Position numbers and translations under genes: made by a program. Under the pieces are notes generated by a model. It ran no database searches. It was not told where the DNA came from and saw nothing but the letters and a program-made list of their open reading frames with translations. From a virus: a DNA stretch of 64,000 nt. Each line of letters opens with the position of its first letter. The stretch's first letter is position 1. The stretch covers positions 39,606 to 103,605 of the IMG/VR virus record IMGVR_UViG_3300010885_030180; one strand, 5' to 3'. Shown here in pieces: positions 2,552 to 44,779 of this stretch.

Positions 2552-2554
2552 TCA

Positions 2555-2561: not shown

Positions 2562-2568
2562 TTAAGTT

Positions 2569-5500: not shown

Positions 5501-8500
5501 CTTCAACCGGAGTAGTAAGTGGTACTCCTACAGTAATATCAAGTAGTAATCCTTATACCGTTACAGTTACTGACACGCTATCACAACTTAGCAGCAAAAC
5601 ATTTAGTTTATCGGTAAGTTATCCTTTATTGAGTACTACTCAGGTAATTGCTACTAAAACTATTACACAGAATATCGATACAGCATCATTTACACCGGTT
5701 ACATATACTGGTGGTTATGGGGCTGTTGCATATTCCATTGCTCCTGCTTTACCAAGTGGACTGGCAATTAATACATCCACTGGATTGATCAGTGGAATAG
5801 CAATTACATCTAGTACTGTTGCCCTTTATACAGTTACCGCTACTGATGCCGCGGCGCAAACTAGTAGTAAGGGATTTAGTTTAACTGTATTACCTGAACC
5901 ACCACCTCCAGCGGTAGTTGCTACACTATCAACATCAAGCTATTCGTTTGTTAAAAATGTAGCCGTTACTACATTTACTCCTGTAGTAGGTAGTGGTGGT
6001 AAGGGTACTCTTTCGTATTCTATTGATATTGGATTACCTAGCGGATTAACTTTCATTCCAACTACAGGACAGATATTAGGAACACCAACTGGTACAAGTA
6101 ACACTACTACATACTCAGTAACAGTTACTGATTCAATATCACAGACTGCTAGTAAGTCGTTTAGTATCTATGTGGCGCCACCACCACCTCCACCTGCATT
6201 AGTTGTAACAGCCACAATTGTTACAAAAACATTAATAAAGAATGTAGCAGCAACAGCATTTATTCCAGTAACTGCCACCGGAGGAGTTGGAGCATATACA
6301 TTTAATGTTAGTCCAAGTTTACCAACAGGATTAACTTTCTTAAGTTCCAATGGACAGATTATTGGTACTCCAAGTAGCACCAGTTCTACAGCTACTTATA
6401 GTATAACTGTTGCAGATACAGTACCACAATATAATACAGCAACATTCTTATTAAATGTAATTAATCCGCCTGCGTTAGCCACCACCGCTACTGCGGCTAC
6501 TTTCTCATTGCAGAAAGATGTTACAATTTCTGCATTTTATCCTGTAACTGCAACAGGCGGTTATGGAACACTTACTTATAGTATAAGTCCAACATTACCA
6601 AGTGGATTGAGTTTTAATTCTACAAATGGTCAGGTAACTGGTACTCCAACAATATATAATGCTAGTACCAGTTATACAATAACAGTAACTGATCAAGCAG
6701 CACAATCAAGCAGCACAGCAGTTTCAATAAGTGTGATACCTGCGTCATTGGTTACAACATTAGCAGTAACATCTAGCACATTTGTTAATGGAGTTACTAT
6801 TACAGCGGTTACTCCAGTAACTGCAACAGGTGGATATACTCCGTACACATATGAAATAAGTTCACCGTTGCCTACCGGATTGGCATTTAGTACAAGTACA
6901 GGGCAAATAACAGGTAAACCTACCGCATCAATATCTGCCACACCATTTACTATAACAGTTAAAGATTTTGGAGTTACTCAAGCTAGCAGCAAGGTTTATA
7001 CATTAACAGTTAATAATCCACCTGCATTAGTTACTGTACAGGATGTTCCTACAGTTAGTTTAACTAGATATGTTGATGTTGCAAATGTATCACCTGTGAG
7101 TGCTAGTGGTGGTTACGGAACTATTTCTTTTGCAATTACTCCTACATTGCCTAGTGGATTAAGTTTCAATGCATCAAATGGTAAGATCACCGGAACTCCT
7201 ACACAATTAGATAATCGTGTATATACTATAACTGCCGCGGATTCTTTAGGGCAAACTAGCAGCAAGACATTTACATTATCAGTTGTACCTGTTCCAATTG
7301 TTACAACATTAGCAGTAGCCAGTAAAAATCTACAGGTACTTGAGTTAGCTACTCCTTTTACTCCTGTTACTGCAACAGATGGGTCAGGTACATTAACCTG
7401 GGCAATAGATAAACTATTACCAAGTGGACTTACAATCAGTACATCTACTGGTTTAATTAGCGGAACTCCTTCTGTAATAAGTTCATTAACAAACTATGCG
7501 GTTACTGTTTCAGATGCAAGTACCTCTAGTAGCAAAACATTTAGTTTATTAATTGACTTTTTACCATTAACCGTTGAACAATTAATTACAGTTAATACAT
7601 TAACACAAAATGTAGCAGCGGTTGCATTTAAACCAGTTAATGCTATTGGTGGTGTTGGTACTTTAGTATATTCAACTGTACCTAGTTTGCAGGCCGGCCT
7701 TAGTATCAATACCAGCACCGGTTATATCAGTGGTACTCCTACTATTGTAACTGCTGGTACTGTGTATTCAGTAGTTGCAACGGATACTATAAGCAATGTC
7801 AATAGTAGTACATTTACTTTAGTTGTTAATGCACCGCCTGCATTAACTACTACCGTAACTACTAGTTCTATCTCACTTACAGTTAATAACGGTGTTGTTC
7901 CTAATATTAGACCAATATTAGGTACAGGTGGATATGGATCACTACGTTATAGTCTTAATAATTCTCCTATCTTTCCTCAAGGATTAACATTTAATACAAG
8001 TACTGGATATATCAGTGGTACTCCAACATTATTAGGGTCTGTACAAACATATACAGTTACCGTAAGAGACGATCTATCTCAAGTTAGTACACAGACATTT
8101 AATTTACAAGTAATTCCACTTCCGATTACTATTACAGTACCTTATCCTACAGCAGCATTAACACAGTATACTCAAGTTACACCATTTGTTCCTGTAGTAG
8201 GCACACTTGGTTATGGTGCATTGACCTATAGTATAAATCCACCATTATCAACGGGATTAAATTTTGATATCAATACTGGAGAAGTTAGCGGCACACCTAC
8301 CAGTACAGTCGGTGATGCTGTACATTATGTAACTGTTACTGACCAAGCTGGACAAAATAATACTGGAACAACTACTATTGTTATTAGTGATAATCCACCT
8401 CCTACATTATTGGCAGTATTACAATCTTCTTATATTGCGTTAACATTGGGTGAATTATCTGAGACAATACCAGTAACTGGTAGTAGCGGTTATGGCACAT

Positions 8501-9090
8501 ATAGTTATTCAATAAGTCCTAGTCAGTTGCCAGCTGGACTAACATTTAATACAGTTAACGGATTAATTAGTGGAACGCCTACAGCAGTATTCACAAGTAC
8601 AAGTTTTACTATTACTGTAACTGACGGTGTTCCACAAACAGCAATACAATCTTTTAATTTAGCAGTAATAGAGGCTATAGTAACACAGGGCAAGGGATAT
8701 ACAGGTAGTCGTGGATATACAGGTTCAATAGGCGTAGGATACACTGGCAGTAAAGGCAATATTGGCTATATAGGTAGTTTTGGCTACACGGGCTCAATTG
8801 GTTATACCGGTAGTGCTGGTCAAAATGGTTATACCGGATCAGCAAGTACCGCAAGTGGATATACCGGTTCAATTGGCGCAGGGTACACTGGTTCGGTTGG
8901 CAACACAGGTACTGGATATACTGGATCTATTGGAATAGGATATACTGGTAGTCGAGGTTATGTAGGTAGCAAAGGTGAAAAAGGCGACCCGGGAACAGGT
9001 GGTGGCGGCGGCTATTTTGGTAACTTTGACGGAGGTCAACCTGACTCTAATTATGGTGGAATCACTAGTATCGATGCTGGTGGGGTCTAG
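2569..9090 (+). CDS. giant adhesin/fibre with ~21 putative Ig (He_PIG-type) repeats and collagen-like C-terminus
   Basis: This 2173-residue protein is built from about 21 tandem repeats of ~85-90 residues. Each carries a core such as SPALPTGLSFN, then xxGxISGTPTV, then YTVTVTD and KTFSLTV. This is the signature of 'putative Ig' (He_PIG) beta-sandwich domains of bacterial surface adhesins. The first ~60 residues are non-repetitive (MAIFFYPYPTTQPNT) and likely attach the protein to a partner. After about residue 2040 it switches to GYTGSx collagen-like repeats and ends with a glycine run and a short tail. Expected role: a very long extended virion fibre contacting the host surface. No enzymatic motif is seen. 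No Shine-Dalgarno precedes the ATG. Confidence 0.8.
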   Translation: MAIFFYPYPTTQPNTVLSQFVLNDIWVSQNGAPVQLTYNAITKKNAWTKYTTPPAVGGISASINGGPPVIASTLVSNTSLTKDQSTSFVPVTAYGGAAVASSYTVTGATVTGLTATISPALPAGLTLSTTLTVKSVTGADSVPRLYNSVDVTISGTPTVAIAGTTFIVTFTDAGGQTSGASFNLTVTGPVIPTLVATQSVASTSLTKNVAAAAFTPVTGSGGQNPLSYGVSPSLPAGLSFNSTNGQITGTPTVALSATTFTVTVTDSLGQTASNTFSLTVVNPPALVLSQSVTTKDLTQNVAITAFIPVSATGGYGTLTYSISPTLPAGLSFSIVTGQISGTPTVSSAANNYTVTITDTLAQSVNATFSLSVTPAQVITVQAVPNTTLTQKIVATEFTPVTGSGGTGTLTYAVSPSLPTGLSFNSSNGLISGTPTVTSGLTVYTVTVTDSQTQTSSKTFSLTVNAPPALSTTQAIATKSLSQNAVATPFIPVTATGGVPSLVFAISPALPAGLTFSSTTGQVSGTPSVATIATTYTVTVTDAVAQTSSKTFLLNVDAVSLTTTLVVPTTVLLQNDLAASFTPVTGSGGIGTLNYAVSPALPTGLTFNTNNGLISGTPTVILATTNFTVTVTDSNNIPQSSSKTFSLTVNPKAVVTVQAVPSTVITQNISITPFIPVTASGGTGTLTYAVSPALPTGLSFNTVNGQISGNSGSVLSQTTYTVTVTDSNTVPQSSSKTFTLTVNALPALTTTLVQATATLTQNTAVTAFIPVTGTGGYGTLAYSISPALPSGLSFNTSNGQVTGTPSVLSGTTNYIVTVTDGASQSSNKTFSLTVNAGPIVTTVLVAAQTITQYILATTFKPVNGTGGYGTLLYSVSPTLPSGLNLNSSTGFITGTPTVVQGATTYTITVTDSVPQTSSKTFTLTVEAPPAISTVLAVPTSALTIGVAASAFTPVTATGGYGTLSYAIGTSLPGGLIFNTSTGVVSGTPTVISSSNPYTVTVTDTLSQLSSKTFSLSVSYPLLSTTQVIATKTITQNIDTASFTPVTYTGGYGAVAYSIAPALPSGLAINTSTGLISGIAITSSTVALYTVTATDAAAQTSSKGFSLTVLPEPPPPAVVATLSTSSYSFVKNVAVTTFTPVVGSGGKGTLSYSIDIGLPSGLTFIPTTGQILGTPTGTSNTTTYSVTVTDSISQTASKSFSIYVAPPPPPPALVVTATIVTKTLIKNVAATAFIPVTATGGVGAYTFNVSPSLPTGLTFLSSNGQIIGTPSSTSSTATYSITVADTVPQYNTATFLLNVINPPALATTATAATFSLQKDVTISAFYPVTATGGYGTLTYSISPTLPSGLSFNSTNGQVTGTPTIYNASTSYTITVTDQAAQSSSTAVSISVIPASLVTTLAVTSSTFVNGVTITAVTPVTATGGYTPYTYEISSPLPTGLAFSTSTGQITGKPTASISATPFTITVKDFGVTQASSKVYTLTVNNPPALVTVQDVPTVSLTRYVDVANVSPVSASGGYGTISFAITPTLPSGLSFNASNGKITGTPTQLDNRVYTITAADSLGQTSSKTFTLSVVPVPIVTTLAVASKNLQVLELATPFTPVTATDGSGTLTWAIDKLLPSGLTISTSTGLISGTPSVISSLTNYAVTVSDASTSSSKTFSLLIDFLPLTVEQLITVNTLTQNVAAVAFKPVNAIGGVGTLVYSTVPSLQAGLSINTSTGYISGTPTIVTAGTVYSVVATDTISNVNSSTFTLVVNAPPALTTTVTTSSISLTVNNGVVPNIRPILGTGGYGSLRYSLNNSPIFPQGLTFNTSTGYISGTPTLLGSVQTYTVTVRDDLSQVSTQTFNLQVIPLPITITVPYPTAALTQYTQVTPFVPVVGTLGYGALTYSINPPLSTGLNFDINTGEVSGTPTSTVGDAVHYVTVTDQAGQNNTGTTTIVISDNPPPTLLAVLQSSYIALTLGELSETIPVTGSSGYGTYSYSISPSQLPAGLTFNTVNGLISGTPTAVFTSTSFTITVTDGVPQTAIQSFNLAVIEAIVTQGKGYTGSRGYTGSIGVGYTGSKGNIGYIGSFGYTGSIGYTGSAGQNGYTGSASTASGYTGSIGAGYTGSVGNTGTGYTGSIGIGYTGSRGYVGSKGEKGDPGTGGGGGYFGNFDGGQPDSNYGGITSIDAGGV
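3136..8670 (+). repeat. tandem He_PIG-type Ig-like domain repeats (about 21 copies)
   Basis: The DNA repeats with a period of about 255-270 bases. I counted 21 copies of the LP(A/T/S)GL...GxITGTPT core by eye, including divergent copies near 7680, 7980 and 8250. Confidence 0.85.
8695..8990 (+). repeat. collagen-like GYTGSx coding repeat at the adhesin C-terminus
   Basis: This shorter tract of the same G-Y-T/G-S-x coding repeat is interrupted once by an A-S-T-A-S spacer. That spacer also occurs repeatedly in the 12607-22188 gene, linking the two genes by shared sequence. Confidence 0.85.
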
Positions 9091-9091
9091 G

Positions 9092-9098: not shown

Positions 9099-9124
9099 TC
9101 GTACAGCAGATATAAAAGGTAAAA

Positions 9125-12274: not shown

Positions 12275-12275
12275 A

Positions 12276-12614
12276 ATGGCATCAACATTACCCTTAAATT
12301 CGTTTAAAACCAAAGCATTTGAATTAACTACTGGTACACAGTTAATCTATCTCACCCCCGATGCTATAACAACTATTGTATTAGGTGCACAGGCCACTAA
12401 TATCAGTAACGCACCAGTTACTGTAAAATTCACATTGGTTAAAAACGATACAACTTTTGTTATGTTGAAAGATTTTGAGATTCCAGTTAATGATGCTTGC
12501 GAAGTTACTACCGGTAAATTAGTAATTGAAGCAGGTGCCTCTGTTACTGCAAGTGCTGGCGCAAATAACAGTGTTAACCTAGTGTTAAGTATATTGGAAA
12601 CCAGCAATGAGTAA
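12276..12614 (+). CDS. small beta-rich structural protein, likely fibre-associated
   Basis: This 112-residue protein has alternating hydrophobic strands (TGTQLIYLTPDAITTIVLGA, then ITNIS-like and VNLVLSILE segments) and no signal peptide or membrane segment. From memory, similar proteins of this size sit beside fibre genes in marine T4-like phages, but I know no assigned function. It starts 1 base after the previous stop. Its last 8 bases overlap the start of the 3193-residue fibre gene, which suggests translational coupling and a shared virion structure. Confidence 0.65.
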   Translation: MASTLPLNSFKTKAFELTTGTQLIYLTPDAITTIVLGAQATNISNAPVTVKFTLVKNDTTFVMLKDFEIPVNDACEVTTGKLVIEAGASVTASAGANNSVNLVLSILETSNE

Positions 12615-15600
12615 GAGTAGACTGTTTAGTGGCAAGATAAAGAAAAAAACTGGCACAGCCCTTGACGGGTCACGCTATGAATATCTTGATGTAAGCCAAG
12701 CAGAACCAGACCTTGGTATACCGTTATCAAACAATGCGGTATTAATAGCTAACACCAGCGGCCAACGATTTTGGTCAAACACATTAACTGATATTACTTT
12801 AGCTGGTACTGTTATTAGCAGTGGAACAGTTACTGGTGATTTGTTACCAAGTATTACTAATACATTTAATTTAGGCCGTGCTGATCTAAGATTTAAAACT
12901 CTATTTGTTAGTAGTGCTACATTGGATATCGGTGGTGTTACTATTTCTAGTACTGGTGCTGATTCCTTAAACATATCAAAATTAATAGTGTCTACTTCAA
13001 CTAACAGTACAAGTACTGTAAGTGGTGCATTACAAGTTGTTGGTGGTGTTGGCATTGGATTAGATTTAGTTGTTGGCGGCTCAATTACTTCCAACTCATT
13101 AACTATTGGAACAGTTTCAAATAATCAGGGTACTTTAAACATTCAAAGTACTGTTGATTCAACATCCACTAATTCAGGTGCGTTACAAGTTGTTGGTGGT
13201 GTTGGCATTGGTGGTAATTTGTATGTTGGTGGCGATATCGTTGCTCAGAAATTAACTATACAACTTACCACAGTAACGACTACATTTATTGTTACAGATG
13301 ATGTAATTAGTACCTATAATACGACTCAATCTACTAGCACTGACTCTGGTGCATTAATTATTGCCGGTGGCGCAGGGTTTGGTAGAGATGTATATGTAGG
13401 CGGATTAATTTATAGTTCAGGTAGTCAAGTATTAACCTATAATAGTACACAGACACTATTAGTAGCAAGTGCTCTTTATGCAACCACAAGTGGATATGCA
13501 TTGGCATTTGATACTGGTACAGTTGTAACTACTGCAATTAATGCAATTAATGCAACTACTGCATCATTTGCAACCACAAGTGGATATGCATTGGCATTTG
13601 ATACTGGTACAGTTGTAACTACTGCAATTAATGCAACTACTGCATCATTTGCAACCACAAGTGGATATGCATTGGCATTTGATACTGGTACAGTTGTAAC
13701 TACTGCGGTTAATGCAACCACTGCTACTAGTTTGGGTCCTGATATTATTAGAATTTCTAATACTACAAATTCTACCTCAACTGATAGTGGCGCATTACAA
13801 ATTGAAGGTGGTGTCGGTATTGGTAAGAATTTAAATGTCGGTAACTTATTGACATTTAATCCAGTAATTTGGAATTATGTAGCAACTACGTTTACATCTA
13901 TTCCTGTAACCTATGGACAAACAAGTTTAACATTTACTGTACAACCGGATAATACCATTACCAATATGAGTGTGGCCGCAGGTGCCGGTGGATATGGTCC
14001 AACTAGTGTTAATTTGACTATTCCTGGAACAACTTTCCCCGGTGGAACAAGTCCTGCTAATGACATTGTTTTTAATGTAGAAACGTTTGTATCTGCAGGC
14101 CCAGTGTACTCAACAGCAGTAAATAGTGCTGTAAGTTATGTAAGCGGAACCCTGCCTCAACGATATGATAATATTTATAGTACAGGTAACGTGGGTATTG
14201 GGGCTGGAACCCAGCATTGGGTATTTGGCACAGATGGTAAATTAACTGCGCCTGGTAAGATAGAAGTTCAATCAAATGTAAATTCAAATTCAATAGCTAC
14301 CGGTGCGTTTACAGTTGTTGGCGGCGCCGGCATTGGATTAGATTTATATGTTGGTAATAATTTATATGTAGCAAATACTGCGTATCTTAATAATGCAGAA
14401 ATATTAACTACATCAAGTGGTTTTTCTAGTGAATCTGGTATTTCTATTATTAACCAACGACTAGTTGTTAATACAAGTACAAACTCCACATCAACTACTA
14501 CTGGTGCAATTGTTACGCCAGGCGGTGTTGGTATTGGTCAGGATATGTGGGTTGGTGGAAAAATTTATGCCGGCGATTTCATCTACAGTAATGGCCAACA
14601 AGTTATTACTACTTCAACTATTAATACATTTGCCAATCAAACTGTAATCACAGCTGGTACTGATACTGCAATTAGTACAAGTACTGGCAATGTAACAATT
14701 TGGAATACTAGTACATTTCAAACTGTAACCGATCGTGGTCATACTACTACTAATGCTATATCAATTACTAGTACAGCTTCTAGTACCTCATCAACTACCG
14801 GTGCATTAACTATTACCGGTGGTGTTGGGGTTGGTGAAAATTTGTATGTTAATGGGTTAATTTATAGTTCAAGTAGTCAGGTATTAACTTATAATAGTAC
14901 ACAGACATTATTAGTAGCAAGTGCGCTTTATGCAACTACAAGTGGATATGCATTAGCATTCAATACCAATACTGTTGTAACCACAGCAGTTAACGCTACT
15001 ACAGCATCATATGCATTAGCATTTGATACTGGTACAGTTGTAACTACAGCAGTTAATGCTACTACAGCATCTAGTTTAGGCACCGGTGTAATTTATATTG
15101 TTAATAGTAGTACTTCTACATCAACTAATACTGGTGCATTAGTTGTTACTGGAGGGGCTGGTGTAGGCGGAGATTTATGGGCAGGCGGAAGTATCTATGC
15201 TGCTGCATTTCTTTATAGTAATGGTCAGCAAGTTATTACTACTTCAACTATTAATACATTTGCCAATCAAACTGTAATCACAGCTGGTACTGATACTGCA
15301 ATTAGTACAAGTACCGGTAATATTACTATTTGGAATACTAGTACATTACAAACTGTTACTGATAGAGGTGCTACAACTACCAATGCTATATCAATTACTA
15401 ATGCAACCGCCAGTGACTCAACTATTACTGGAGCATTAATAGTTGCAGGTGGTGTTGGTATTGGTGGAGATATATATGTTGGCGGTGCATTATATCAAAA
15501 TGGCCAACAAGTTATTACAACTTCTACTATTAATGATTATGCAAACCAAACAGTTATAACTGCTGGTACTGATACTGCAATTAGTACAAGTACTGGCAAT

Positions 15601-18600
15601 ATTACTATTTGGAATACTAGTACGTTACAAACGGTTACTGGTAGAGGTCATACTACTACTAATCAAATTAGAATTGATAATACTCTCACTAGCACAAGTT
15701 CATTTGCATCTAATGCATTATATGTGGCAGGCGGAATTGGCGGTAACAGTGGATTTAATATCAATGGTGATGGATACTTGCACGGTGATTTAATTGTTTT
15801 TGGTACTATCACCGGAACCAACGTAACATTAACAACCTTAGTAGCTAACAGTGGCACCTTCTATGGTGATACTTCGGGATCAGGCGCATTATATGCTGGT
15901 ATTATAGGAGCAACGCCATTTTCACAGACCATGGCACAATTTACCGGTGATCTTAATGATTACATGGAAATTAATGTACAAAATATTAATGCAGGCGCCA
16001 TTGCTAGTACCGATATTGTTGCAAGCGCAGACAATGTCACTGAAACGGGCGCATTCATTGATATGGGTATTACCAGCAGCGGATGGGACGGATCTGCTAC
16101 ATTAAGTTTTGGTAATGCACTTGGTCCTAATGATGGCTATTTGTTAGTAGGAAATAGTAATCTTCCTACATCGGGTCACTTGGTAATAGGTACTATGGCT
16201 CTGGATACTAGTGTTAAGATCATAGTAGCAGGTACAAATTCAAATTATATCACTGCTATCTTTAATACTGCAACCACTGAATCAATCTCAACTACTACAG
16301 GTGCATTAGTAGTACGTGGTGGATTGGGCGTTGGTGGCTCTATATATGCAGCATCTACCAGTTACATAAACAACTCTAAGATCCTTGTTGCTGGCGATTT
16401 AGAAACAGTAACGCACACTGCTACTTACATTACTAACAATCCCGGATCTGTAGCAGTTGCTGGAACTAGCACCATCTACGGTACTTACGACTTTGGCGCA
16501 GTAAGTGATGTTTGGACTTTTAACGATTACAACACTGGTACTAATTTTGGATACTACAGTATTCACGATGCAGCAACACAACCTGCGTTTATTGTCTACA
16601 TTGGATTTAGTGGTATCACTGATTTCAATCGTATTGTATTAAACATTAATTACACACAAAATTCAGGCCATACACAAGAGATTGATTTATACAACTATGT
16701 ACAGAACCAGTGGGATACGTTTACTACCTATTCTGGGTCAACTGGTTGGTTTGAATTCATTCTTGGTACTGTCGATCCTGCACCTTATATTTCCAGCGGT
16801 ACTGTTACTGCTCGTATATATCATGTGTCATTCGGTAATACAGCACATAGAACATGGATTGATTATGTTGCCCTTGAAAAATCTATACAAGGCGGTCAAG
16901 GTCCACGCGGTGCCACCGGCGCTACTGGAGCAACTGGTGCTCAAGGATTAACTACAAGTACAACAAGTACATTTATATTTTCTAATACATTAGCTAGTAC
17001 ATCAACTGTGGCAAGCAATGCTGTTTATATAGAAGGTGGATTGGGTATTGGTAAATCTTTATTAGTAACTGGAGAAGCAATATTTCAAAATAATGTAACA
17101 TTTGCTGGTACTACTACTTTTGTATTATCTACTAACACAGTTTATACAGATAACATTATTGAATTGCATTATCCAAATACTCCCGGAAATGTATGGGCTG
17201 TAAATGACGGTAAGGATATCGGATTAAGATTCCACTATTACGATGGTGCAGACAAAAATGCCGGATTAGTATTAGCCAATGATACCAAATATTTAGAATG
17301 GTATTCTAGCGGAACAGAAGATGGCACAAGTACATTTGCAGGCAGTGCGTATGGTACCTTTAAAACTGGCAGTATTGTATTAACTAATACTACAGTTTCT
17401 ATTAGTACCTCAACCGGTGCATTACAAGTCGCAGGTGGTGTTGGTATTGGTGGTAGTTTATACATTGGTGGTGCATTATATCAAAATGGTCAGCAAGTTA
17501 TTACAACTGCTACAATTAACAACTTTGCAAATCAAACAACAATAACTGCCGGTACTGATACTGCAATTAGTACCAGTACTGGCAACATTACTATTTGGAA
17601 TACCAGTACATTACAAACCGTCACTGATAGAGGTAATACTACTACTAATGCAATTAGTATTACTAATGCAACTGCAAGTGGCTCAACTATTACCGGCGCA
17701 TTAACAGTTGCAGGTGGTATTGGTGTAGGTGGCGATTTATACATTGGTGGTGCATTATATCAAAGCGGTCAGCAAGTTATTACAACTGCTACCATTAATC
17801 AATATGCAAATCAAACAAGTATTATTGCTGGTACAGACACAGCAGTAAGTACCAGCACTGGTAATATTATAATTTGGAATACTAGCACTTTACAAACAGT
17901 TACTAGTAGAGGCGCTACAACTACCAATGCAATATCAATCACTAATGCAACTGCAAGTGGTTCAACTATTACCGGAGCATTAACTGTTACTGGCGGTGTT
18001 GGGATTGGTGGCAATTTATATGTTGGTGGTGCATTATATCAAAGCGGGCAAGCAATATTATCCACTGCTACCATTAATCAATTTGCTAATCAAACCAGTA
18101 TTATTGCTGGTACTGATACAGCAGTAAGTACCAGTACTGGTGCTATTACAATTTGGAATACCAGTACATTACAAACGGTTACTGGTAGAGGTGCTACAAC
18201 CAATAATGCAATTAGTATTACTAATACCACAAGTTCTATTAGTACCACAACTGGTGCATTAATTGTAACTGGCGGGGTTGGTATTGGCGGTAGTTTAAAT
18301 GTTGGAGATGCCAGTGTTGTTAACGTAAACAGCACCAGCACAGCCTTACGTATCACCCAGCTTGGCGCAGGTAATGCGCTGGTAGTTGAGGATGAGGCTA
18401 ATCCTGATGCATCACCATTTGTAATTGCTAGTAATGGTACCGTGATTATTGGTCACACTGCACGGGTCACACAAGTTAATGTCCTCGAAGTACATAGCAG
18501 CGCCGCCATTAACAGTTCACCTGCTATGGGGGTTTACAGTTGGGGAACACTTGCCACTGGCGGTGGTCTGAATTTGTACAAATCTCGCTCAGGTACTGTA

Positions 18601-21600
18601 GGAACGTACTCGACTGCAACAAATGGATCCCAATCCAGTATTCGTTTCCAATTTGATGACGGTGCAGCTTTTCAACAAGCTGCTTCGATCATTGGCTCAG
18701 TAGAAGGAACGCCTGCACTTAACAGTACGCCTGGTCGCTTAACCTTTGGTACCACACCGGATGCTTCTACCACGCCAGTTGAGCGTATGCGTATTGACAG
18801 CGTAGGTCAGACTAAATTTAGCACTGTCATTACTGCAACCTCAACAACTACTGGCGCATTGGTAGTAACAGGTGGCGTTGGGATTGGTGGCAATTTATAT
18901 GTTGGCGGAGCATTTACTGCAACATCAATTAGCATTGGTGGTATCAATGTGGGGTATGGATATACTGGTAGTTTAGGTTATACTGGATCAATAGGTTATA
19001 CTGGCTCAATAGGCTACACTGGTTCAGCAAGTACCGCTACTGGTTATACTGGTAGTATTGGTTATACTGGCTCAATAGGATATACTGGTTCGGCAAGCAC
19101 AGTCTCTGGGTATACTGGTAGTATTGGTATAGGTTATACTGGATCAGCAAGTACTGCAACTGGTTATACTGGTAGTATTGGCTATACTGGAAGTAAAGGT
19201 ACTGACGGAACCAGTGTTACTATTAAAGGGTCGACTTCAACTTCAGCAGCGTTACCAGGATATCCAACTTCGTATATTGGTACAGCAGGTGATGGATATA
19301 TAACAACAGATACTGGGCACTTATGGGTATGGAGTGGTAGTGCATGGAATGATGTTGGCAATATTACAGGTCCATCTGGTGGACTTGGTTATACTGGGTC
19401 AAGAGGATATACTGGTTCGGCAAGTACTGCAAGTGGATATACTGGTAGTATTGGTGTAGGATACACTGGCTCTGCAAGTACCGTAACAGGCTATACCGGC
19501 AGTATTGGTTATACTGGTAGTATTGGTTATACTGGATCAGCAAGTACTGCAAGTGGATATACTGGAAGCCAAGGAACAGGTGGTGGGGCAGGATATACCG
19601 GATCAGCAAGTACCGTAACAGGATATACTGGATCAGTGGGGTATACTGGTAGCATTGGTAGTACCGGAACAACTGGATATACTGGTAGTATAGGCAATAC
19701 TGGTACTATAGGATATACTGGCAGCATTGGTACTATTGGATATACTGGTAGTATAGGCAATACTGGTACCATTGGATATACTGGCAGTATAGGTTATACT
19801 GGTAGTTTGGGTTATACTGGTTCAGCAAGTACTGCTTCTGGGTATACTGGTAGCACTGGTACTATAGGATATACTGGTAGTTTAGGATATACTGGTAGTG
19901 CAGGTGTGTCTGGTACCTTTAGCGCCGTTCAGGTATTTAATACACAAAGTGGTACAACTTATACATTGGTATTGGCAGACGCAGGTGATTTGGTTAAATT
20001 AACTAATGTTTCAGGCGTTACAGTTACTATTCCATTAGAAAGTTCTGTTAACTTTGCCATTGGGCAGCGTGTAGATATAGAACAAGCAAGTGCAGGCAAT
20101 GTCGCAATAGTAGGGGCAAGTGGAGTTACATTAAACTCAACTGATTATCCGGTACTAAGTACACAATATAGTGTGGGTACATTGATCAAAACTGGATCAA
20201 ATGAATGGCTGTTTGTTACACCACAGGGCGGATTAGGTTACACAGGAAGTACAGGCGTTGGCTATACGGGCAGTTTAGGTTACACTGGATCAGCAAGTAC
20301 CGCTAGTGGCTACACTGGATCAGCAAGTACTGCAAGCGGCTATACCGGTAGTTTAGGATATGTTGGAAGTGTTGGTAACTTTAGTTCTGTACAAACATCT
20401 AACACACAAACTGGTACCACTTATACATTGGCATTAACTGATGCTGGGCAGTTGATAAAATTAACTAATGCTTCAAATGTTACAGTTACTATTCCATTAG
20501 AAAGTTCAGTTAATTTTGCTATAGGACATAGATTAGATATAGAACAGGCTAGTACAGGTATTGTTGCAGTAGTAGGGGCAAGTGGAGTTACATTAAACTC
20601 AACTGATTATCCAGTACTAAGTACACAATATAGTGTGGGTACATTGATCAAAACTGGATCAAATGAATGGCTGTTTGTTACACCACAGGGTGGCACAGGA
20701 TATACTGGTAGTACGGGCGCCGGTTATACTGGATCTGCATCAACAGGATCATCATTTACAGGTGGAGTGATTACAGGTATTACTACTGTTACAAACACAA
20801 CAAATGCAAGTTCAACTAATTCAGGTGCATTACAAGTTGTCGGTGGTGTTGGCATTGGTGGCAGTTTGTTTGTTGGTGGTGTTATAACTGCAACTAACTT
20901 CTTTGCAGGTACATTAAGAATTGATGCTGGTAGCACAATGACTAATTTAGTTGTTACTGGTACTGCTACATCAACTAGTACTACGACCGGCGCTGTTATT
21001 ATATCTGGTGGATTAGGAGTTGGACTTGGTATAGTTGCCGGCGGAACTGTTACTGCCACAAACTTTATATTAAACGGATATCAAGTTAGTACTGCTACAG
21101 GTAGCGCAACTTTTACCGGTGGATCTGTAGCAAATACTACTACATTTGTAAGTACAGTCACTATTACTTCAACTGCAATTTCAACATCAACTACAACTGG
21201 CGCTTTACAAGTTGTAGGTGGCGTTGGTATTGGTGGTAACATTAACTTTGGCGGTAGTTTATATCAAAATGGTGTATTGTTTACCGGAGGTGGCGGAGTC
21301 GGCAGCTTTAATTCAGTACAAACTTTTAACACACAAACTGGTACTAGCTATACATTGGTATTAACTGATGCTGGTACTTTAGTTAATATGAATAATGCTG
21401 TTGGTGCTACTGTTACAGTACCGCCAGAAAGCTCAGTTAACTTCAGTATTGGACAGCGTGTTGATATAGCACAAAATGGTGCTGGACCAGTGGTAATATC
21501 AGCAGGTGTGGGTGTTACATTACATACCACTGATCTTCCATTATTGAATAATCAATACAGTATTGGTACATTGATCAAAGTAGGTTCCAATGAATGGACA

Positions 21601-22188
21601 TTTGCCGGTCCAAGTACTGGCGTTATTGGGTATACTGGTTCAGTTGGTGCAGGTTACACTGGTTCAATTGGTAGCACTGGTACAATAGGTTACACAGGTT
21701 CTGCAAGCACCGCAAGTGGATATACTGGTTCTGCAAGCACCGCAAGTGGATATGCTGGTAGTGCTGGTGGATTTACTTCAGTTCAGGTGTTTAATACACA
21801 AACCGGTACTGCTTATACACTAGTATTAGCTGATTCTGGTTACTTGGTTAATATAAACAATGCTGTGGGTACTACTGTTACTATACCACCGGAAAGTTCA
21901 GTTAACTTTGCCGTTGGCCAGCGTGTTGATATAAGTCAGAACGGACTAGGGCCTGTGGTAATATCAGCAGGTGTGGGTGTTACATTACATACCACTGATC
22001 TTCCATTATTGAATAATCAATATAGCATGGGTACACTACTTAAGGTGGGCTCAAATGAATGGACATTTGCTGGACCCAGTGCAAGTGTTGTAGGTTATAC
22101 TGGCAGTGCAGGCGCTAACGGTGTTATCGGAACTAATGGTACTAACTATGTAGATACATTAAATACATTTTTATTAATGGGTGCATAA
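12607..22188 (+). CDS. 3193-residue mosaic fibre/adhesin protein
   Basis: This is the largest gene in the window. The N-terminus (MSKSRLFSGKIKKKTG, then YEYLDVSQAEPDLG) is a charged attachment segment. The body carries about 20 copies of a ~30-residue motif ST(T/N)(T/S)GALxVxGGVGIGGxLYVGG, separated by variable spacers and by distinct globular inserts. Insert positions are about residues 415-540, 1080-1215, 1255-1420, 1485-1585 and 1900-2080. From about residue 2118 it changes to GYTGSx collagen-like repeats with A-S-T-A-S interruptions. The C-terminal third has four copies of a ~100-residue beta domain (TYTLVLADAG, VTIPLESSVNF, GSNEWLF(V)TP). The whole reads as a long trimeric fibre assembled by domain shuffling. 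It ends exactly one base before the next gene's GTG. Confidence 0.8.
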   Translation: MSKSRLFSGKIKKKTGTALDGSRYEYLDVSQAEPDLGIPLSNNAVLIANTSGQRFWSNTLTDITLAGTVISSGTVTGDLLPSITNTFNLGRADLRFKTLFVSSATLDIGGVTISSTGADSLNISKLIVSTSTNSTSTVSGALQVVGGVGIGLDLVVGGSITSNSLTIGTVSNNQGTLNIQSTVDSTSTNSGALQVVGGVGIGGNLYVGGDIVAQKLTIQLTTVTTTFIVTDDVISTYNTTQSTSTDSGALIIAGGAGFGRDVYVGGLIYSSGSQVLTYNSTQTLLVASALYATTSGYALAFDTGTVVTTAINAINATTASFATTSGYALAFDTGTVVTTAINATTASFATTSGYALAFDTGTVVTTAVNATTATSLGPDIIRISNTTNSTSTDSGALQIEGGVGIGKNLNVGNLLTFNPVIWNYVATTFTSIPVTYGQTSLTFTVQPDNTITNMSVAAGAGGYGPTSVNLTIPGTTFPGGTSPANDIVFNVETFVSAGPVYSTAVNSAVSYVSGTLPQRYDNIYSTGNVGIGAGTQHWVFGTDGKLTAPGKIEVQSNVNSNSIATGAFTVVGGAGIGLDLYVGNNLYVANTAYLNNAEILTTSSGFSSESGISIINQRLVVNTSTNSTSTTTGAIVTPGGVGIGQDMWVGGKIYAGDFIYSNGQQVITTSTINTFANQTVITAGTDTAISTSTGNVTIWNTSTFQTVTDRGHTTTNAISITSTASSTSSTTGALTITGGVGVGENLYVNGLIYSSSSQVLTYNSTQTLLVASALYATTSGYALAFNTNTVVTTAVNATTASYALAFDTGTVVTTAVNATTASSLGTGVIYIVNSSTSTSTNTGALVVTGGAGVGGDLWAGGSIYAAAFLYSNGQQVITTSTINTFANQTVITAGTDTAISTSTGNITIWNTSTLQTVTDRGATTTNAISITNATASDSTITGALIVAGGVGIGGDIYVGGALYQNGQQVITTSTINDYANQTVITAGTDTAISTSTGNITIWNTSTLQTVTGRGHTTTNQIRIDNTLTSTSSFASNALYVAGGIGGNSGFNINGDGYLHGDLIVFGTITGTNVTLTTLVANSGTFYGDTSGSGALYAGIIGATPFSQTMAQFTGDLNDYMEINVQNINAGAIASTDIVASADNVTETGAFIDMGITSSGWDGSATLSFGNALGPNDGYLLVGNSNLPTSGHLVIGTMALDTSVKIIVAGTNSNYITAIFNTATTESISTTTGALVVRGGLGVGGSIYAASTSYINNSKILVAGDLETVTHTATYITNNPGSVAVAGTSTIYGTYDFGAVSDVWTFNDYNTGTNFGYYSIHDAATQPAFIVYIGFSGITDFNRIVLNINYTQNSGHTQEIDLYNYVQNQWDTFTTYSGSTGWFEFILGTVDPAPYISSGTVTARIYHVSFGNTAHRTWIDYVALEKSIQGGQGPRGATGATGATGAQGLTTSTTSTFIFSNTLASTSTVASNAVYIEGGLGIGKSLLVTGEAIFQNNVTFAGTTTFVLSTNTVYTDNIIELHYPNTPGNVWAVNDGKDIGLRFHYYDGADKNAGLVLANDTKYLEWYSSGTEDGTSTFAGSAYGTFKTGSIVLTNTTVSISTSTGALQVAGGVGIGGSLYIGGALYQNGQQVITTATINNFANQTTITAGTDTAISTSTGNITIWNTSTLQTVTDRGNTTTNAISITNATASGSTITGALTVAGGIGVGGDLYIGGALYQSGQQVITTATINQYANQTSIIAGTDTAVSTSTGNIIIWNTSTLQTVTSRGATTTNAISITNATASGSTITGALTVTGGVGIGGNLYVGGALYQSGQAILSTATINQFANQTSIIAGTDTAVSTSTGAITIWNTSTLQTVTGRGATTNNAISITNTTSSISTTTGALIVTGGVGIGGSLNVGDASVVNVNSTSTALRITQLGAGNALVVEDEANPDASPFVIASNGTVIIGHTARVTQVNVLEVHSSAAINSSPAMGVYSWGTLATGGGLNLYKSRSGTVGTYSTATNGSQSSIRFQFDDGAAFQQAASIIGSVEGTPALNSTPGRLTFGTTPDASTTPVERMRIDSVGQTKFSTVITATSTTTGALVVTGGVGIGGNLYVGGAFTATSISIGGINVGYGYTGSLGYTGSIGYTGSIGYTGSASTATGYTGSIGYTGSIGYTGSASTVSGYTGSIGIGYTGSASTATGYTGSIGYTGSKGTDGTSVTIKGSTSTSAALPGYPTSYIGTAGDGYITTDTGHLWVWSGSAWNDVGNITGPSGGLGYTGSRGYTGSASTASGYTGSIGVGYTGSASTVTGYTGSIGYTGSIGYTGSASTASGYTGSQGTGGGAGYTGSASTVTGYTGSVGYTGSIGSTGTTGYTGSIGNTGTIGYTGSIGTIGYTGSIGNTGTIGYTGSIGYTGSLGYTGSASTASGYTGSTGTIGYTGSLGYTGSAGVSGTFSAVQVFNTQSGTTYTLVLADAGDLVKLTNVSGVTVTIPLESSVNFAIGQRVDIEQASAGNVAIVGASGVTLNSTDYPVLSTQYSVGTLIKTGSNEWLFVTPQGGLGYTGSTGVGYTGSLGYTGSASTASGYTGSASTASGYTGSLGYVGSVGNFSSVQTSNTQTGTTYTLALTDAGQLIKLTNASNVTVTIPLESSVNFAIGHRLDIEQASTGIVAVVGASGVTLNSTDYPVLSTQYSVGTLIKTGSNEWLFVTPQGGTGYTGSTGAGYTGSASTGSSFTGGVITGITTVTNTTNASSTNSGALQVVGGVGIGGSLFVGGVITATNFFAGTLRIDAGSTMTNLVVTGTATSTSTTTGAVIISGGLGVGLGIVAGGTVTATNFILNGYQVSTATGSATFTGGSVANTTTFVSTVTITSTAISTSTTTGALQVVGGVGIGGNINFGGSLYQNGVLFTGGGGVGSFNSVQTFNTQTGTSYTLVLTDAGTLVNMNNAVGATVTVPPESSVNFSIGQRVDIAQNGAGPVVISAGVGVTLHTTDLPLLNNQYSIGTLIKVGSNEWTFAGPSTGVIGYTGSVGAGYTGSIGSTGTIGYTGSASTASGYTGSASTASGYAGSAGGFTSVQVFNTQTGTAYTLVLADSGYLVNINNAVGTTVTIPPESSVNFAVGQRVDISQNGLGPVVISAGVGVTLHTTDLPLLNNQYSMGTLLKVGSNEWTFAGPSASVVGYTGSAGANGVIGTNGTNYVDTLNTFLLMGA
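13480..13731 (+). repeat. near-perfect tandem repeat within the mosaic fibre gene
   Basis: Three copies of an 81-90-base unit begin at 13480, 13570 and 13651. Each starts gcaaccacaagtggatatgc and encodes ATTSGYALAFDTGTVVTTA. The first copy carries a 9-base internal duplication. Related, more diverged copies occur near 14930-15070. Confidence 0.85.
18955..19902 (+). repeat. collagen-like GYTGSx repeat with A-S-T-A-S interruptions
   Basis: This is the third locus of the GYTGSx coding repeat. It carries one copy of the same ~55-residue globular module seen twice in the 509-2551 gene (about 19196-19380, with DGTSVTI, GDGYI and GHLWVWSGSAW). Confidence 0.85.
20113..20228 (+). repeat. 116-base direct repeat, copy 1 (copy 2 at 20575-20690)
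   Basis: The two 116-base stretches differ at a single base by eye (tatccggta versus tatccagta). They lie in the first two of the four C-terminal beta domains of the mosaic fibre. Such near identity inside diverged flanks points to recent duplication or gene conversion. Confidence 0.9.
21490..21557 (+). repeat. 68-base direct repeat, copy 1 (copy 2 at 21955-22022)
   Basis: This stretch is identical by eye to 21955-22022. The two copies lie in the third and fourth C-terminal beta domains of the mosaic fibre. Confidence 0.85.
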
Positions 22189-39985: not shown

Positions 39986-40013
39986 TTGACACACTGATCA
40001 AAGAGTATATAAT
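39986..40013 (+). promoter_or_regulatory. sigma70-type promoter with almost no leader
   Basis: TTGACA at 39986-39991 and TATAAT at 40008-40013 are both exact consensus, separated by 16 bases. The ATG at 40023 lies only 9 bases after the -10 box. The predicted transcript would be leaderless or nearly so, and no Shine-Dalgarno is present. Confidence 0.75.
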
Positions 40014-40022
40014 TAATAGCAT

Positions 40023-43000
40023 ATGAAACTTGCTATTATAGATATTATCGGTATACCATACGATGGTAGTACACTAACTAAACAAGGTTTGGGCGGCAGC
40101 GAAAGTGCTGTTATACTAATGGCGCAGGAACTTGCTGCTATTGGATTTGATGTTACAGTCTTTAATGATTGTAATGTTGATCACACCAGCCCTGGTATAT
40201 ACAACAATGTTAGATATCTCCCACTAAACGAGCTAAACAACAATCACTACTTTGATATTGTTATTAGCAGTAGAACGGTAATACCATTCACTGCACCTAG
40301 TGACTATCCTAAACTAGGTGACCACAGAGCAATGCCATTCCAAAATATGGATCTCTATAATAGGATCTTAAGTAAAGCAACTATGCGTGTGCTATGGATG
40401 CACGATACATTCTGCTTAGGTGATAATTTAATTGAAGAACTAGCAGTGGCCAATAGAATCACTGACATCTTTACACTCAGTGATTTCCACTTGACCTATG
40501 TTACTAATTGCAATCACGGACGTAGACGTAACTTCGAAGTCTTGAAAAATAAGATGTTCATTACACGCAATGGAGCTCGTAATTACAAAACCGAGGTTGA
40601 TATCAAAGCTAAGGATCCTAACTTGTTTGTCTACAATGCAAGTGTGACTAAAGGTATGATTCCATTAGTTAAATTAATTTGGCCCAGAGTTAAACAACAA
40701 CTACCTCAAGCAAAATTAAAAATTATTGGTGGTTACTATGTGTTCAGTACCAAGTCCGCGATGGATGAGCAGGAAAAGAACTGGCGTGAGATGAGTACTG
40801 ATCCACGCAATGCTGCTCTTGGTATTGAGTATACTGGAGTTATTGCACAAAAAGAAGTTGCTGACATTTTAACCGATGCTAGTTATATGTTATATCCATC
40901 AGCATTTCCTGAAACTTTTGGTATATCTGCATTAGAGTCGTTGCTGTACAATACTCCTATTATTACTTGTAAGTTTGGTGCATTGGAAGAAATTGCATTG
41001 CCAGGTGCTTGCTATACTATTGACTATGCTATTGAATCCAACGGATTGTTCCCTGATATTAATAATGCAGAACAGGTAGATAAATTTGTTGCTATGACTG
41101 TACAAGCATATCACAACAAATATTTACATCAACAAAAACAATACTATTGCAATATTGTCAAAGACCTTGCAGGTTGGGATACTGTAGCATTGCAATGGAA
41201 ACAGTTGATGACTAAACGCTTGGGCAAATATCTAAGCAGAGCAGAATATCGTAAAGTTTCAGATATCAATCGTAGAGTGCATAAAGTATGGAATCGTAAG
41301 TTCCATAACAGCGTAGAGTTGGAAAACTATAAAACAGGCAATGAACAAAACATTGCTATCATTAGCCCATTCTATAACTGTGCTAATTATATTGCGAGAT
41401 GTATTAACAGCGTAGCATCACAGGACTACAACAACTATCTACATATTTTAATAGATGATGCTAGTACTGATAACACGTTTGAAGTTATTAATGCAACACT
41501 GGCAGATTTACCAATGGATGTTAGAAATAAATTTCTAGTTATTTCTAACTCAGAAAATGTAGGTGCAGTTAAGAACCAAATACAAAACATTAGAGCAATG
41601 ATTGCTGATGATACTATTGTTATGTTACTAGATGGCGATGATAGTTTGATTAACGACAATAATATACTTGCATATTATAATAATATCTATAATGGATCCA
41701 CTGAGTTTACATATGGGTCATGTTGGAGTATGGTTGACAACATTCCTTTAATTAGTCAACCTTATCCTGAAGATGTAAAAAAACGTAAATCATACAGGAA
41801 TCATCATTTCAATTGGATCCTACCATATACACATTTACGCACATTTAAGAAGTCACTGCTTAACAACATAGATGACTCAGCATTTAAAGATGCACAGGGG
41901 CAATGGTACAAAGCCGGTGGTGATGGTAGTGTATTCTATGCATTAATAGAAGCAGCAGATCCATCCAAGGTAAAATGTTTGCAAGATATTGTTTATAACT
42001 ATAACGATGCTAGCCCGTTAAATGATTACAAAGTTAATGCTCAAGAACAAACTCGTAATGCTAGACAGATTGTTAAAGGTAATCCTGAAAAATTTTCTGT
42101 GGTAGTTCCTACTATGTGGAAAGTAACAGATCAATTTGTTAATTTTTTAAAAGTACTATGTGAGTATCCATTAGTAGATGAAATTATTATTATCAACAAC
42201 GATGTTATGAAAACACCGCCTGCTAGTATACTAGCACATGATAAAATTAAATTGATAAATTTTAAACAGAATATATATGTTAATCCTGCTTGGAATTTAG
42301 GAGTTAGCACAGCACGTAATAATAAAATTTGTATTGCTAACGATGATGTAACATTTGATACTGCTGTGTTTGAACAATTGCAAGATTTAATAACTAAAGA
42401 TAATGGAGTATTTGGATTATGTCCAGGTGAATCATTTTTCCATCAAATACCAGTAACTGATAAAACTATTAACATAGTACCCTGGACCAATCAACATACA
42501 TATGGATTTGGTTGCCTTATGTTTATGCATAAGAGTGCATGGGTAGATATCCCCGAGGGTCTCGAGATTTACTTTGGTGATAATTTTATATTTGATGTAC
42601 AACTTAGCAAAGGTAGAAAGAATTACCTCATTACCAATATGGATCACTTTACACCATTTGCATCCACTACATCAGATTTGTCTATTACTAGCGGATTTTT
42701 AGAAAGAGAACGTATAATATACGACAAAATAAAAAGTAACTTAACTATAATGCCTGAAAAAATAATTACCCAACCAGTTGCTAAGAAACGAATATTAATT
42801 GCTATTCCTACAGCAAAAAATATTGAAGCAGATACTTTTAAATCAATATACGATCTTGAAGTTCCGGACGGATATGAAACAACTTTTCAAGCGTTCTTTG
42901 GATATAATGTAGATCAGGTTCGTAATTTAATTGCTGATTGGGTTGTTAAAGGATTTGATTATTTGTTTAGTGTAGATAGCGATATTGCTTTCCCTACAAA

Positions 43001-44081
43001 TACACTGAAAAAGTTATTGGAACACGACAAGGATATAGTATCAGGTCTTTATATACAAAGAAAGCCAGGGCAACATACACTTGAGATTTACGAACCTACT
43101 CCTAACGGCGGTGTTACTCAAATGCCTTATGCAAAATTGAAAGGTAGATCTATTGTGGAAGTTGCGGGTTGTGGTTTTGGATGTGTATTAGTTAAATCTG
43201 AAGTAATGAGAGAAATAGGATATCCTCAGTTTAAATATCACAGCGCCATTGATCATAACAACACCGTTTCTGAAGATGTTGATTTCTGCGCTAAGGCAAA
43301 GAACAAAGGATTTAAAATATGGGCAGACCCATCGATACTTTGCAAACATATTGGTAGTTTTACATTTGAAGTTGATGCTGGCATACAAGCAATTGAAACT
43401 ATGGAAACTGTTGATGTTGCAACCCATTTAAAAAATCTAAGCACACAACCACTGATACCTACAATTCATCTAGATTATTTGGCTAAGTTAAAAGCATCGG
43501 GTGTTGAACCTAAGGTTGTATATGATATAGGTGCATGTGTTCTTAGTTGGACCACCGAGGCAAGTAAACTATGGCCCGATGCTGAATATGTAGCGTTTGA
43601 TGCAATGGCAGAAGTTGAATCTATATACAAAGAACGAGGTATAAAATATCACATTGGTGTTCTCAGTGATGTTACTGGTAAGTCTGTAGATTTCTATCAG
43701 AATAATTATTGGCCCGGTGGAAATAGTTATTATGTAGAAAATCCAGAAATTAAAATTGATGCCTTGGAGTATTTTAACGAATCACATAAACGATCATTGA
43801 ATACTGTAACATTGGATACTGTGGCTAGACTAAAAGCATTTCCTAAACCCGATCTAATTAAAATGGATGTGCAGGGTGCAGAATTAGATGTTCTTAAAGG
43901 TGCAGAAGAAATATTAAAAACTGCTAAACATGTTATCCTTGAATTGCAAGTAATTGAATATAACAAAGGTGCACCACTTCGAGATACTGTTATAGCATAT
44001 ATGGATCAGATAGGGTTTAATTGTTTAGGATTATTCTGCGATAACGGACCTGATGGTGACTATTATTTTGTACAAAGATAA
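40023..44081 (+). CDS. multidomain glycosyltransferase-FkbM methyltransferase polyprotein
   Basis: This 1352-residue protein joins several sugar-modifying domains. Residues ~1-400 form a GT-B (GT4-like) transferase with GLGGSESAVILMAQEL near the N-terminus and YPSAFPETFGISALES near residue 290 (E-x7-E motif). Residues ~440-670 form a GT2 domain (IAIISPFYNCANYI, DDASTDNT, DGDDS). Residues ~690-905 form a second GT2-like domain (FSVVVPTMWKVT, IIIINND, WNLGVSTARNN). Residues ~920-1135 form another GT-A-like domain (RILIAIPTAKN, FSVDSDIAFP). Residues ~1160-1352 form an FkbM-type methyltransferase (VVYDIGACVLSW, LIKMDVQGAELDVLKGAE). It may glycosylate virion fibres or host envelope glycans; the substrate is unknown. 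Its promoter is sigma70-like, not late-type. The stop overlaps the next ATG (TAATG). Confidence 0.85.
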   Translation: MKLAIIDIIGIPYDGSTLTKQGLGGSESAVILMAQELAAIGFDVTVFNDCNVDHTSPGIYNNVRYLPLNELNNNHYFDIVISSRTVIPFTAPSDYPKLGDHRAMPFQNMDLYNRILSKATMRVLWMHDTFCLGDNLIEELAVANRITDIFTLSDFHLTYVTNCNHGRRRNFEVLKNKMFITRNGARNYKTEVDIKAKDPNLFVYNASVTKGMIPLVKLIWPRVKQQLPQAKLKIIGGYYVFSTKSAMDEQEKNWREMSTDPRNAALGIEYTGVIAQKEVADILTDASYMLYPSAFPETFGISALESLLYNTPIITCKFGALEEIALPGACYTIDYAIESNGLFPDINNAEQVDKFVAMTVQAYHNKYLHQQKQYYCNIVKDLAGWDTVALQWKQLMTKRLGKYLSRAEYRKVSDINRRVHKVWNRKFHNSVELENYKTGNEQNIAIISPFYNCANYIARCINSVASQDYNNYLHILIDDASTDNTFEVINATLADLPMDVRNKFLVISNSENVGAVKNQIQNIRAMIADDTIVMLLDGDDSLINDNNILAYYNNIYNGSTEFTYGSCWSMVDNIPLISQPYPEDVKKRKSYRNHHFNWILPYTHLRTFKKSLLNNIDDSAFKDAQGQWYKAGGDGSVFYALIEAADPSKVKCLQDIVYNYNDASPLNDYKVNAQEQTRNARQIVKGNPEKFSVVVPTMWKVTDQFVNFLKVLCEYPLVDEIIIINNDVMKTPPASILAHDKIKLINFKQNIYVNPAWNLGVSTARNNKICIANDDVTFDTAVFEQLQDLITKDNGVFGLCPGESFFHQIPVTDKTINIVPWTNQHTYGFGCLMFMHKSAWVDIPEGLEIYFGDNFIFDVQLSKGRKNYLITNMDHFTPFASTTSDLSITSGFLERERIIYDKIKSNLTIMPEKIITQPVAKKRILIAIPTAKNIEADTFKSIYDLEVPDGYETTFQAFFGYNVDQVRNLIADWVVKGFDYLFSVDSDIAFPTNTLKKLLEHDKDIVSGLYIQRKPGQHTLEIYEPTPNGGVTQMPYAKLKGRSIVEVAGCGFGCVLVKSEVMREIGYPQFKYHSAIDHNNTVSEDVDFCAKAKNKGFKIWADPSILCKHIGSFTFEVDAGIQAIETMETVDVATHLKNLSTQPLIPTIHLDYLAKLKASGVEPKVVYDIGACVLSWTTEASKLWPDAEYVAFDAMAEVESIYKERGIKYHIGVLSDVTGKSVDFYQNNYWPGGNSYYVENPEIKIDALEYFNESHKRSLNTVTLDTVARLKAFPKPDLIKMDVQGAELDVLKGAEEILKTAKHVILELQVIEYNKGAPLRDTVIAYMDQIGFNCLGLFCDNGPDGDYYFVQR

Positions 44082-44779
44082 TGGCATACAATAAAGAACA
44101 CGCTAGGGCTGAATTTGCCCGCCACGGTGAAGAAGGGCTATTGCGTCATCTATCAAATAAACTATCTACTATAATTGATGCTGGTAGTAATATGGGTGAA
44201 TGGTGTTTAATGGCCAGAGAACATAATCCTAACGCAGAAATACATACATTTGAAATTATACCAGAAGTATACAGAAAGTTTCTAGCAAATGTCGACATTG
44301 ATAATAAAATAATTCCTAATGGATTTGGATTATCAAACAGACAAGGCATGATGAAGATGCAATATAGTGTTGAGTTTGATGCAGTTAGTTCGTATTTTGA
44401 AGGTCTCAATATAGGACCGGTTGAAACTCGAGAGTGCTTTATTGTTACAGGCGATCAGTATGTAGCAAGTAGAAATATAAACTACATTGATTTTTTAAAA
44501 GTAGATGTTGAGGGAGCAGAAGGTCTAGTGCTAGAAGGATTTACTGAAACATTAGCAAGTAATAAGGTAGGTGTTATTCAATTTGAATATGGATTTGCAA
44601 ATGTATTAAGCAGATGGTTGTTAATTGATGCTTATAAAATGCTAACACCTTTAGGGTTTCATATTGGATTGCTTACTACTGAGGGAGTTAAATTTAAGGA
44701 TTATATCCTAACTGATGAAACGTTTATTGGCCCTAACTATGTTGCAGTACATAAATCAAAGATGCATCAGATGATATAA
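44081..44779 (+). CDS. FkbM-family SAM-dependent methyltransferase
   Basis: The 232-residue protein has the SAM-binding motif IIDAGSNMGEW (about residue 30), the acidic FEIIPE strand, and the FkbM signature FLKVDVEGAEGLVLEGF (about residues 141-157). FkbM enzymes methylate hydroxyl groups, often on sugars. The gene overlaps the preceding GT polyprotein by one base (TAATG), so the two probably act in one glycan-modification pathway. That polyprotein already ends in its own FkbM domain, giving two methyltransferase activities. The stop codon overlaps the perfect late promoter of the nuclease gene. Confidence 0.85.
   Translation: MAYNKEHARAEFARHGEEGLLRHLSNKLSTIIDAGSNMGEWCLMAREHNPNAEIHTFEIIPEVYRKFLANVDIDNKIIPNGFGLSNRQGMMKMQYSVEFDAVSSYFEGLNIGPVETRECFIVTGDQYVASRNINYIDFLKVDVEGAEGLVLEGFTETLASNKVGVIQFEYGFANVLSRWLLIDAYKMLTPLGFHIGLLTTEGVKFKDYILTDETFIGPNYVAVHKSKMHQMI

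Follow-up and report, generated by a model that had tools for sequence, protein, structure and literature searches.

Few phages are known to glycosylate their virions, and to our knowledge no acceptor motif has been defined for this modification. In the chlorovirus PBCV-1, the single chain of A064R contains a methyltransferase and two rhamnosyltransferases. A061L, a small methyltransferase encoded separately, acts only once A064R has done so; the glycosyltransferase (GT) genes are early (PMC9614988). A064R with A061L, and A111/114R (PMC9614988, PMC7826918), resemble the locus analysed here as virus-encoded soluble multidomain chains; they yield a methylated virion glycan. In mycobacteriophages, virion proteins undergo phage-encoded glycosylation, to which methyltransferase genes have been linked (Freeman et al. 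2023, as cited in PMC12619734 and PMC12894461), and PMC12619734 places the glycans at the C-termini of capsid and tail tube proteins. Flagellin glycosylation islands of Enterobacteriaceae (PMC4875605) likewise contain cytosolic GTs, GT-methyltransferase fusions and FkbM genes beside the gene of a polymeric surface protein, but they are bacterial and chromosomal, with flagellin as the acceptor.

The window, the whole 64,000-nt stretch of DNA that was analysed, corresponds to positions 39606-103605 of a 103,605-bp IMG/VR virus record (G000). Its 1352-aa enzyme (domains D1 to D5, from N- to C-terminus) and a 232-aa FkbM methyltransferase are encoded consecutively, the start of the second gene overlapping the stop of the first at TAATG (Table 1). 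As the original prediction had it, five domains lie in one chain and a second FkbM enzyme follows (PF05050, 38.7 bits, curated Pfam cut-off 22.7); the five are a GT4, three GT-A of which two are GT2-like and one is of the PHROG_1574 type, and an FkbM methyltransferase. The term polyprotein used there is abandoned: nothing points to cleavage, so the 1352-aa protein is a multidomain enzyme. It differs from A064R in having five domains instead of three, and A064R serves an algal virus whose capsid glycan is N-linked; a PDB search at E<=0.1 gave no match to domain 1 of A064R, the only domain compared. A064R and A061L are the closest working precedent by analogy, not by family membership. Downstream of the GT operon, as in many relatives, lies a non-specific endonuclease gene (PF01223, window 44807-45628); it has a late-like motif, and the N-terminus of its product resembles a signal peptide.

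Table 1. Features of the GT locus and of the fibre genes (window coordinates).
Feature	Coordinates	Strand	Evidence or remarks
Collagen-like tail-fibre protein, many GYTGS repeats (candidate acceptor)	509..2551	+	
Large fibre-like protein with GYTGS repeats (candidate acceptor)	2569..9090	+	
3193-aa fibre-like protein with GYTGS repeats (candidate acceptor)	12607..22188	+	
Upstream neighbour, LamG/glycine-rich fibre-like, 1650 aa	35023..39975	+	Late-like motif 18 bp before start
Sigma-70 promoter TTGACA-16-TATAAT	39986..40013	+	Score 12/12, 9 nt before ATG
1352-aa GT4-GT2-GTA-GTA-FkbM multidomain enzyme	40023..44081	+	ORF and profile matches
D1: GT4 (GT-B), residues 1-425	40023..41297	+	EX7E motif E297/E305, K210
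D2: GT2 (GT-A), residues 440-690	41340..42092	+	D479, D537-G-D539-D540, D634
D3: GT2-like GT-A, residues 690-912, optional in family	42090..42758	+	N773-D774-D775, D853
D4: GT-A of PHROG_1574 type, residues 914-1118	42762..43376	+	D985-S-D987, E1084-D1085, H1109
D5: FkbM methyltransferase, residues 1135-1352	43425..44078	+	Profile match, motifs, model
Second FkbM methyltransferase, 232 aa	44081..44779	+	PF05050 match

D1 matches Glycos_transf_1 at residues 201-329 (39 bits, cut-off 26.4; Pfam), and its model matches the GT-B/GT4 structures 7qsg, 3c4q and 2gej in a fold search. Two stretches match Glycos_transf_2, the best being 446-601 (86 bits; Pfam), and D3 shows best through its own family alignment. 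D4 matches phrog_1574 at 916-1116 (5.6e-27; PHROGs) and D5 matches FkbM PF05050 at 1168-1332 (51.2 bits, same curated cut-off of 22.7; Pfam). Fold searches, the D3-D5 model included, gave GT-A matches to heparosan and chondroitin synthases, ppGalNAc-T and STIV A197. In the AlphaFold models of residues 1-692 (mean pLDDT 88.3, pTM 0.87) and residues 688-1352 (mean pLDDT 87.5, pTM 0.41), D1-D2 is predicted to form one structural unit and D3-D5 look like beads on a string.

The loss of catalytic residues from most domains, which the original prediction had regarded as fatal to it, is not seen: in each of the five domains, compared in 65-91 unique relatives, these residues vary hardly or not at all. 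Consistent with the GT4/GT-B assignment of D1, E297 and E305 are invariant in 90 sequences, and the same holds for D479, D537, D539, D540 and D634 of D2 (GT2/GT-A, 91 sequences) and for D985/D987, E1084/D1085 and H1109 of D4 (GT-A, 90 sequences). The NDD and GD motifs of D3 (GT-A) are conserved at 98-100% in 65 sequences, and D1168, G1170 and D1282 of the FkbM methyltransferase D5 are invariant. Median dN/dS values of 0.05-0.23 per domain indicate purifying selection in every domain, and the kept catalytic residues together with low dN/dS rule out decayed domains. A fused assembly line for a short methyl-capped oligosaccharide, adjoining the fibre cluster, agrees with the evidence, and the original interpretation as a whole is partly supported.

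Scans of IMG/VR retrieved 56 relatives with the full protein as query, most of them lacking D3, and 560 candidates with the D3 alignment, of which 80 were retained. The complete D1-D2-D3-D4-D5 order is present in one ORF at 31 of the 76 new loci (own count; some are near-duplicates), one of them with an additional methyltransferase domain. The suggested search for the same fusion order in other phages therefore shows that the fusion is not unique, and chance or assembly-made fusion is ruled out by the identical order in these 31 further loci. Variants retain D1, D2 and D4, and the remainder varies: D5 has a gene of its own in L042-44, L078, L085 and L086; L111 is split as D1D2D3|D4D5; L108 has two D1 domains; L047 has a GT25 domain; L009, L131 and L139 have Methyltransf_24-like domains slightly under the curated cut-off; and in L015 a different FkbM gene comes next. 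Judging from these arrangements, the family seems to combine a constant D1-D2-D4 core with exchangeable modules for extension and capping. L006 (12022-12744) and L037 (12022-12747) have another D3-type GT as a separate gene, which follows the five-domain gene and overlaps its end. The chain of L016 (8001-11390) is interrupted within D5, giving two ORFs; this may reflect a frameshift, faulty assembly or a methyl cap that was lost naturally.

A scan of prokaryotes (84,980 species, one genome each) gave no more than two confirmed matches. One is a MAG contig that is itself phage-like and has collagen-like genes together with a split D1D2|D4-methyltransferase pair; the other is a weak match to a generic GT2. 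Bacterial origin is ruled out by this result, and on the sequences scanned the enzyme family is restricted to phages. Relatives are common in freshwater phages, to which the present phage belongs, and neither the full fusion nor a match to the second FkbM protein was found among 50,697 isolate records. The link to actinobacteriophages that had been drawn for the locus is unsupported: two long relatives encode gp23-type capsid proteins, and the nearest isolate ribonucleotide reductases (RNRs) are those of Xanthomonas/Stenotrophomonas phages (53-60%). A 2173-aa fibre gave no match when used to place the phage. Unlike the mycobacteriophage system, this locus gives no sign of an actinobacterial host, and its candidate acceptor is a set of collagen-like fibre repeats.

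An ORF is present upstream of the GT gene in 59 of 68 representatives (95% identity); it is fibre-like by composition in 49 of the 59, versus 9 of 71 non-fibre ORFs of G000. The upstream neighbours tested match tail-fibre, virion-structural or LamG/Gly-rich PHROGs, except that of L009, which has no match. In L042, L045, L135 and L137 the neighbour is on the opposite strand and yet fibre-like, so fibre adjacency survives rearrangement. Free-standing phrog_1574 GTs, which are homologues of D4 at 33-37% identity, occur in cyanophages and in other phages and also lie among structural genes (capsid, tail or baseplate): between the major capsid and tail tubular protein A genes in MW202711, close to a tail protein in BK063679, and close to gp25/gp6 in cyanophages. 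They differ in having a single domain and in occurring also in phages poor in GYTGS motifs; D4 alone has no tie to GYTGS. A pectate-lyase-like protein with an Mtd_N-like start, probably a tailspike, is encoded at window 55604-57286, next to the genes for RNR and at a distance from the fibre cluster.

G000 encodes 92 GYTG[S/T]-type motifs, on one strand only, in four fibre-like genes. In hexamers with GS at positions 4-5, the second residue is Tyr in 102 of 113 and the third is Thr in 80 of 113. The codons of GYTGS vary synonymously, which points to selection on the protein. In other collagens, Thr at the third position of Gly-X-Thr is known to be O-glycosylated. A literature search found no description of GYTGS repeats in phages.

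The repeats and the enzyme co-occur in both directions of search. All nine long GT-positive records have 12-129 GYTG[S/T]-type motifs (0-4 for the reversed-pattern control), and two GT-positive contigs sampled by RNR have 35 and 37; the exceptions, with 0-1 motifs, are G014, a 52-kb fragment, and G022, with a divergent GT at the contig edge. Twelve records negative for the GT core, two of them cyanophage isolates, have 0-3 motifs; records of 354, 222, 194 and 181 kb are among the twelve. Conversely, when 22 contigs >50 kb were picked solely by tandem GYTGS repeats, the D1-D2 core (E<1e-100) was found in 17, including 10 of the 11 longer than 100 kb, each time accompanied by D4, and was absent from five. 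None of 21 control contigs with GxKGDTG collagen repeats has the core, and two have a generic GT2 match only (17/22 versus 0/21, Fisher p = 8e-8, a value that ignores ancestry). Many of the records are fragments.

Part of this linkage may be due to shared ancestry, and the repeats might share only ancestry and region with a GT whose acceptor is the neighbouring LamG/glycine-rich fibre or another virion protein. Such an acceptor would agree with the gene order, the immediate neighbour being usually LamG/Gly-rich or otherwise fibre-like and not GYTGS; in the window, the GYTGS genes are located ~18-40 kb upstream of the GT gene. However, GT and GYTGS are jointly present or absent even among contigs with RNRs 81-91% identical to that of the window, and the linkage extends across GTs whose D1 domains have a median pairwise identity of 55% and a minimum of 42%, which makes another virion acceptor rather improbable. 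From these sequence comparisons, the probable function on balance is that of a cytosolic assembly line, carried by the phage, which makes a virion glycan on the collagen-like GYTGS fibres. Of the two targets originally put forward, fibres and host envelope, fibre decoration is favoured by the adjacency to fibre genes, the co-occurrence with GYTGS in both search directions and the D4-type GTs in structural gene runs.

The promoter of the GT gene bears on the second target. Scores of 11-12 were obtained upstream of the GT gene in 32 of 63 representatives, whereas the remaining ORFs of these loci reached them in 22 of 389 cases (Fisher p ~1e-17, optimistic because the sequences are related), and only four gene starts of G000 score at least 11: those of DNA ligase, the 1352-aa GT, a PD-(D/E)XK protein and the RNR large subunit. 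The -10 element mostly ends 5-9 nt before the ATG, a distance so short that the mRNA would be nearly leaderless. No late promoter precedes the GT gene, where the sigma-70 site stands. The window shows no enrichment of the exact T4 late box TATAAATA (6 copies against an expectation of 10.9); ATAAATA, with 28 occurrences in total, is enriched before ORFs (<=80 bp upstream of 18 of 92), and late-like motifs lie ahead of several fibre ORFs. Given the perfect, conserved sigma-70 promoter, and with T4-like phages as the model, we infer that the GT gene is probably expressed early despite its position among late fibre genes. An inverted repeat, TAATAGC...GCTATTA (window 40014-40038), surrounds the start codon and would place the ATG in a predicted hairpin loop (z -1.98); in L105 and L112, the -10 box is within a palindrome, CGCTATATAATAGCG, that may be an operator.

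An early enzyme could instead modify the host envelope by placing a methylated oligosaccharide on LPS/O-antigen, on capsule or on some other glycan there, thereby blocking superinfection or the re-adsorption of progeny, and its gene could travel with fibre genes as fibre and receptor co-adapt. The early-type promoter that the GT gene has in common with DNA ligase and RNR agrees with this, as do weak matches to families of GtrB-like O-antigen conversion proteins (2.5e-6, a PHROG matched by D2) and V. cholerae RfbT (0.007), and modular GTs and methyltransferases that resemble serotype variation. Phage seroconversion gtr clusters also consist of phage-borne GTs, but the present locus has neither membrane proteins nor the three-gene layout of gtrA, gtrB and a type-specific gene: no transmembrane segment is predicted in the 1352-aa or the 232-aa protein, there is no multi-transmembrane neighbour, and a single ORF in the whole of G000 has two predicted segments. 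Thus, no phage-encoded flippase or membrane GT is seen. Envelope modification also does not predict the linkage to GYTGS or the D4 relatives within structural gene runs. It is unlikely, but it is the strongest rival, given the early promoter and the possibility that genes for receptor modification move together with fibres.

Phage GTs often glycosylate DNA bases, and an early-type promoter would also suit glycosylation of a hydroxymethylated base of phage DNA. G000 has genes for an aminotransferase, a carbamoyltransferase and radical SAM enzymes, which belong to classes seen in DNA-modification clusters, and a phage carbamoyltransferase is reported to modify 5hmC (PMC8670742). Against this, no thymidylate synthase/hydroxymethylase (PF00303) was found in G000, G001, G004, G009 and G011, PF00303 being missing from most records, which may be fragments, and the carbamoyltransferase is present in only three of ten GT-bearing records; a search for Tet_JBP carries no information on TET, its control having been silent. 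Four GTs with methyltransferases are more than the DNA glycans known to us would need. DNA hypermodification is very unlikely. The radical SAM/SPASM run, with its Nol-like carbamoyltransferase and DegT sugar aminotransferase (L058, G000 1-20000, at 9652-18682, and L059 at 354-6101), may supply the donor of a modified sugar or amino sugar, or may act on another target. Genes resembling Asp/Asn beta-hydroxylase, fatty-acid desaturase and APS-kinase/cytidylyltransferase are located on the minus strand of L059 (9296-11994).

If the GYTGS fibres are the target, the soluble enzyme would be made early, ahead of the fibres; D1, D2 and D4 would assemble a short glycan at Thr/Ser residues within the GYTGS repeats of the long collagen-like fibres, the optional D3 would add a further sugar, and D5 and the second FkbM enzyme would add methyl caps. 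Exchange of D3 and methyltransferases between phages would vary the surface glycan. More tentatively, enzyme and repeat may constitute a dedicated enzyme-acceptor pair for O-glycosylation of repeated Gly-Tyr-Thr-Gly-Ser, common in freshwater phages, in which swappable GT and methyltransferase modules give rise to glyco-serotypes. The enzyme is classed here as a variant of virus-encoded multidomain glycan synthesis that yields an enzyme-acceptor prediction testable with recombinant proteins, without a cultured phage. If the prediction is true, many uncultured freshwater phages would make glycans in the cytosol with a single chain whose acceptor repeat can be predicted, virion glycosylation could be read from sequence and part of fibre diversity explained, and the compact fused GT set would be usable for making glycosylated collagen-like proteins.
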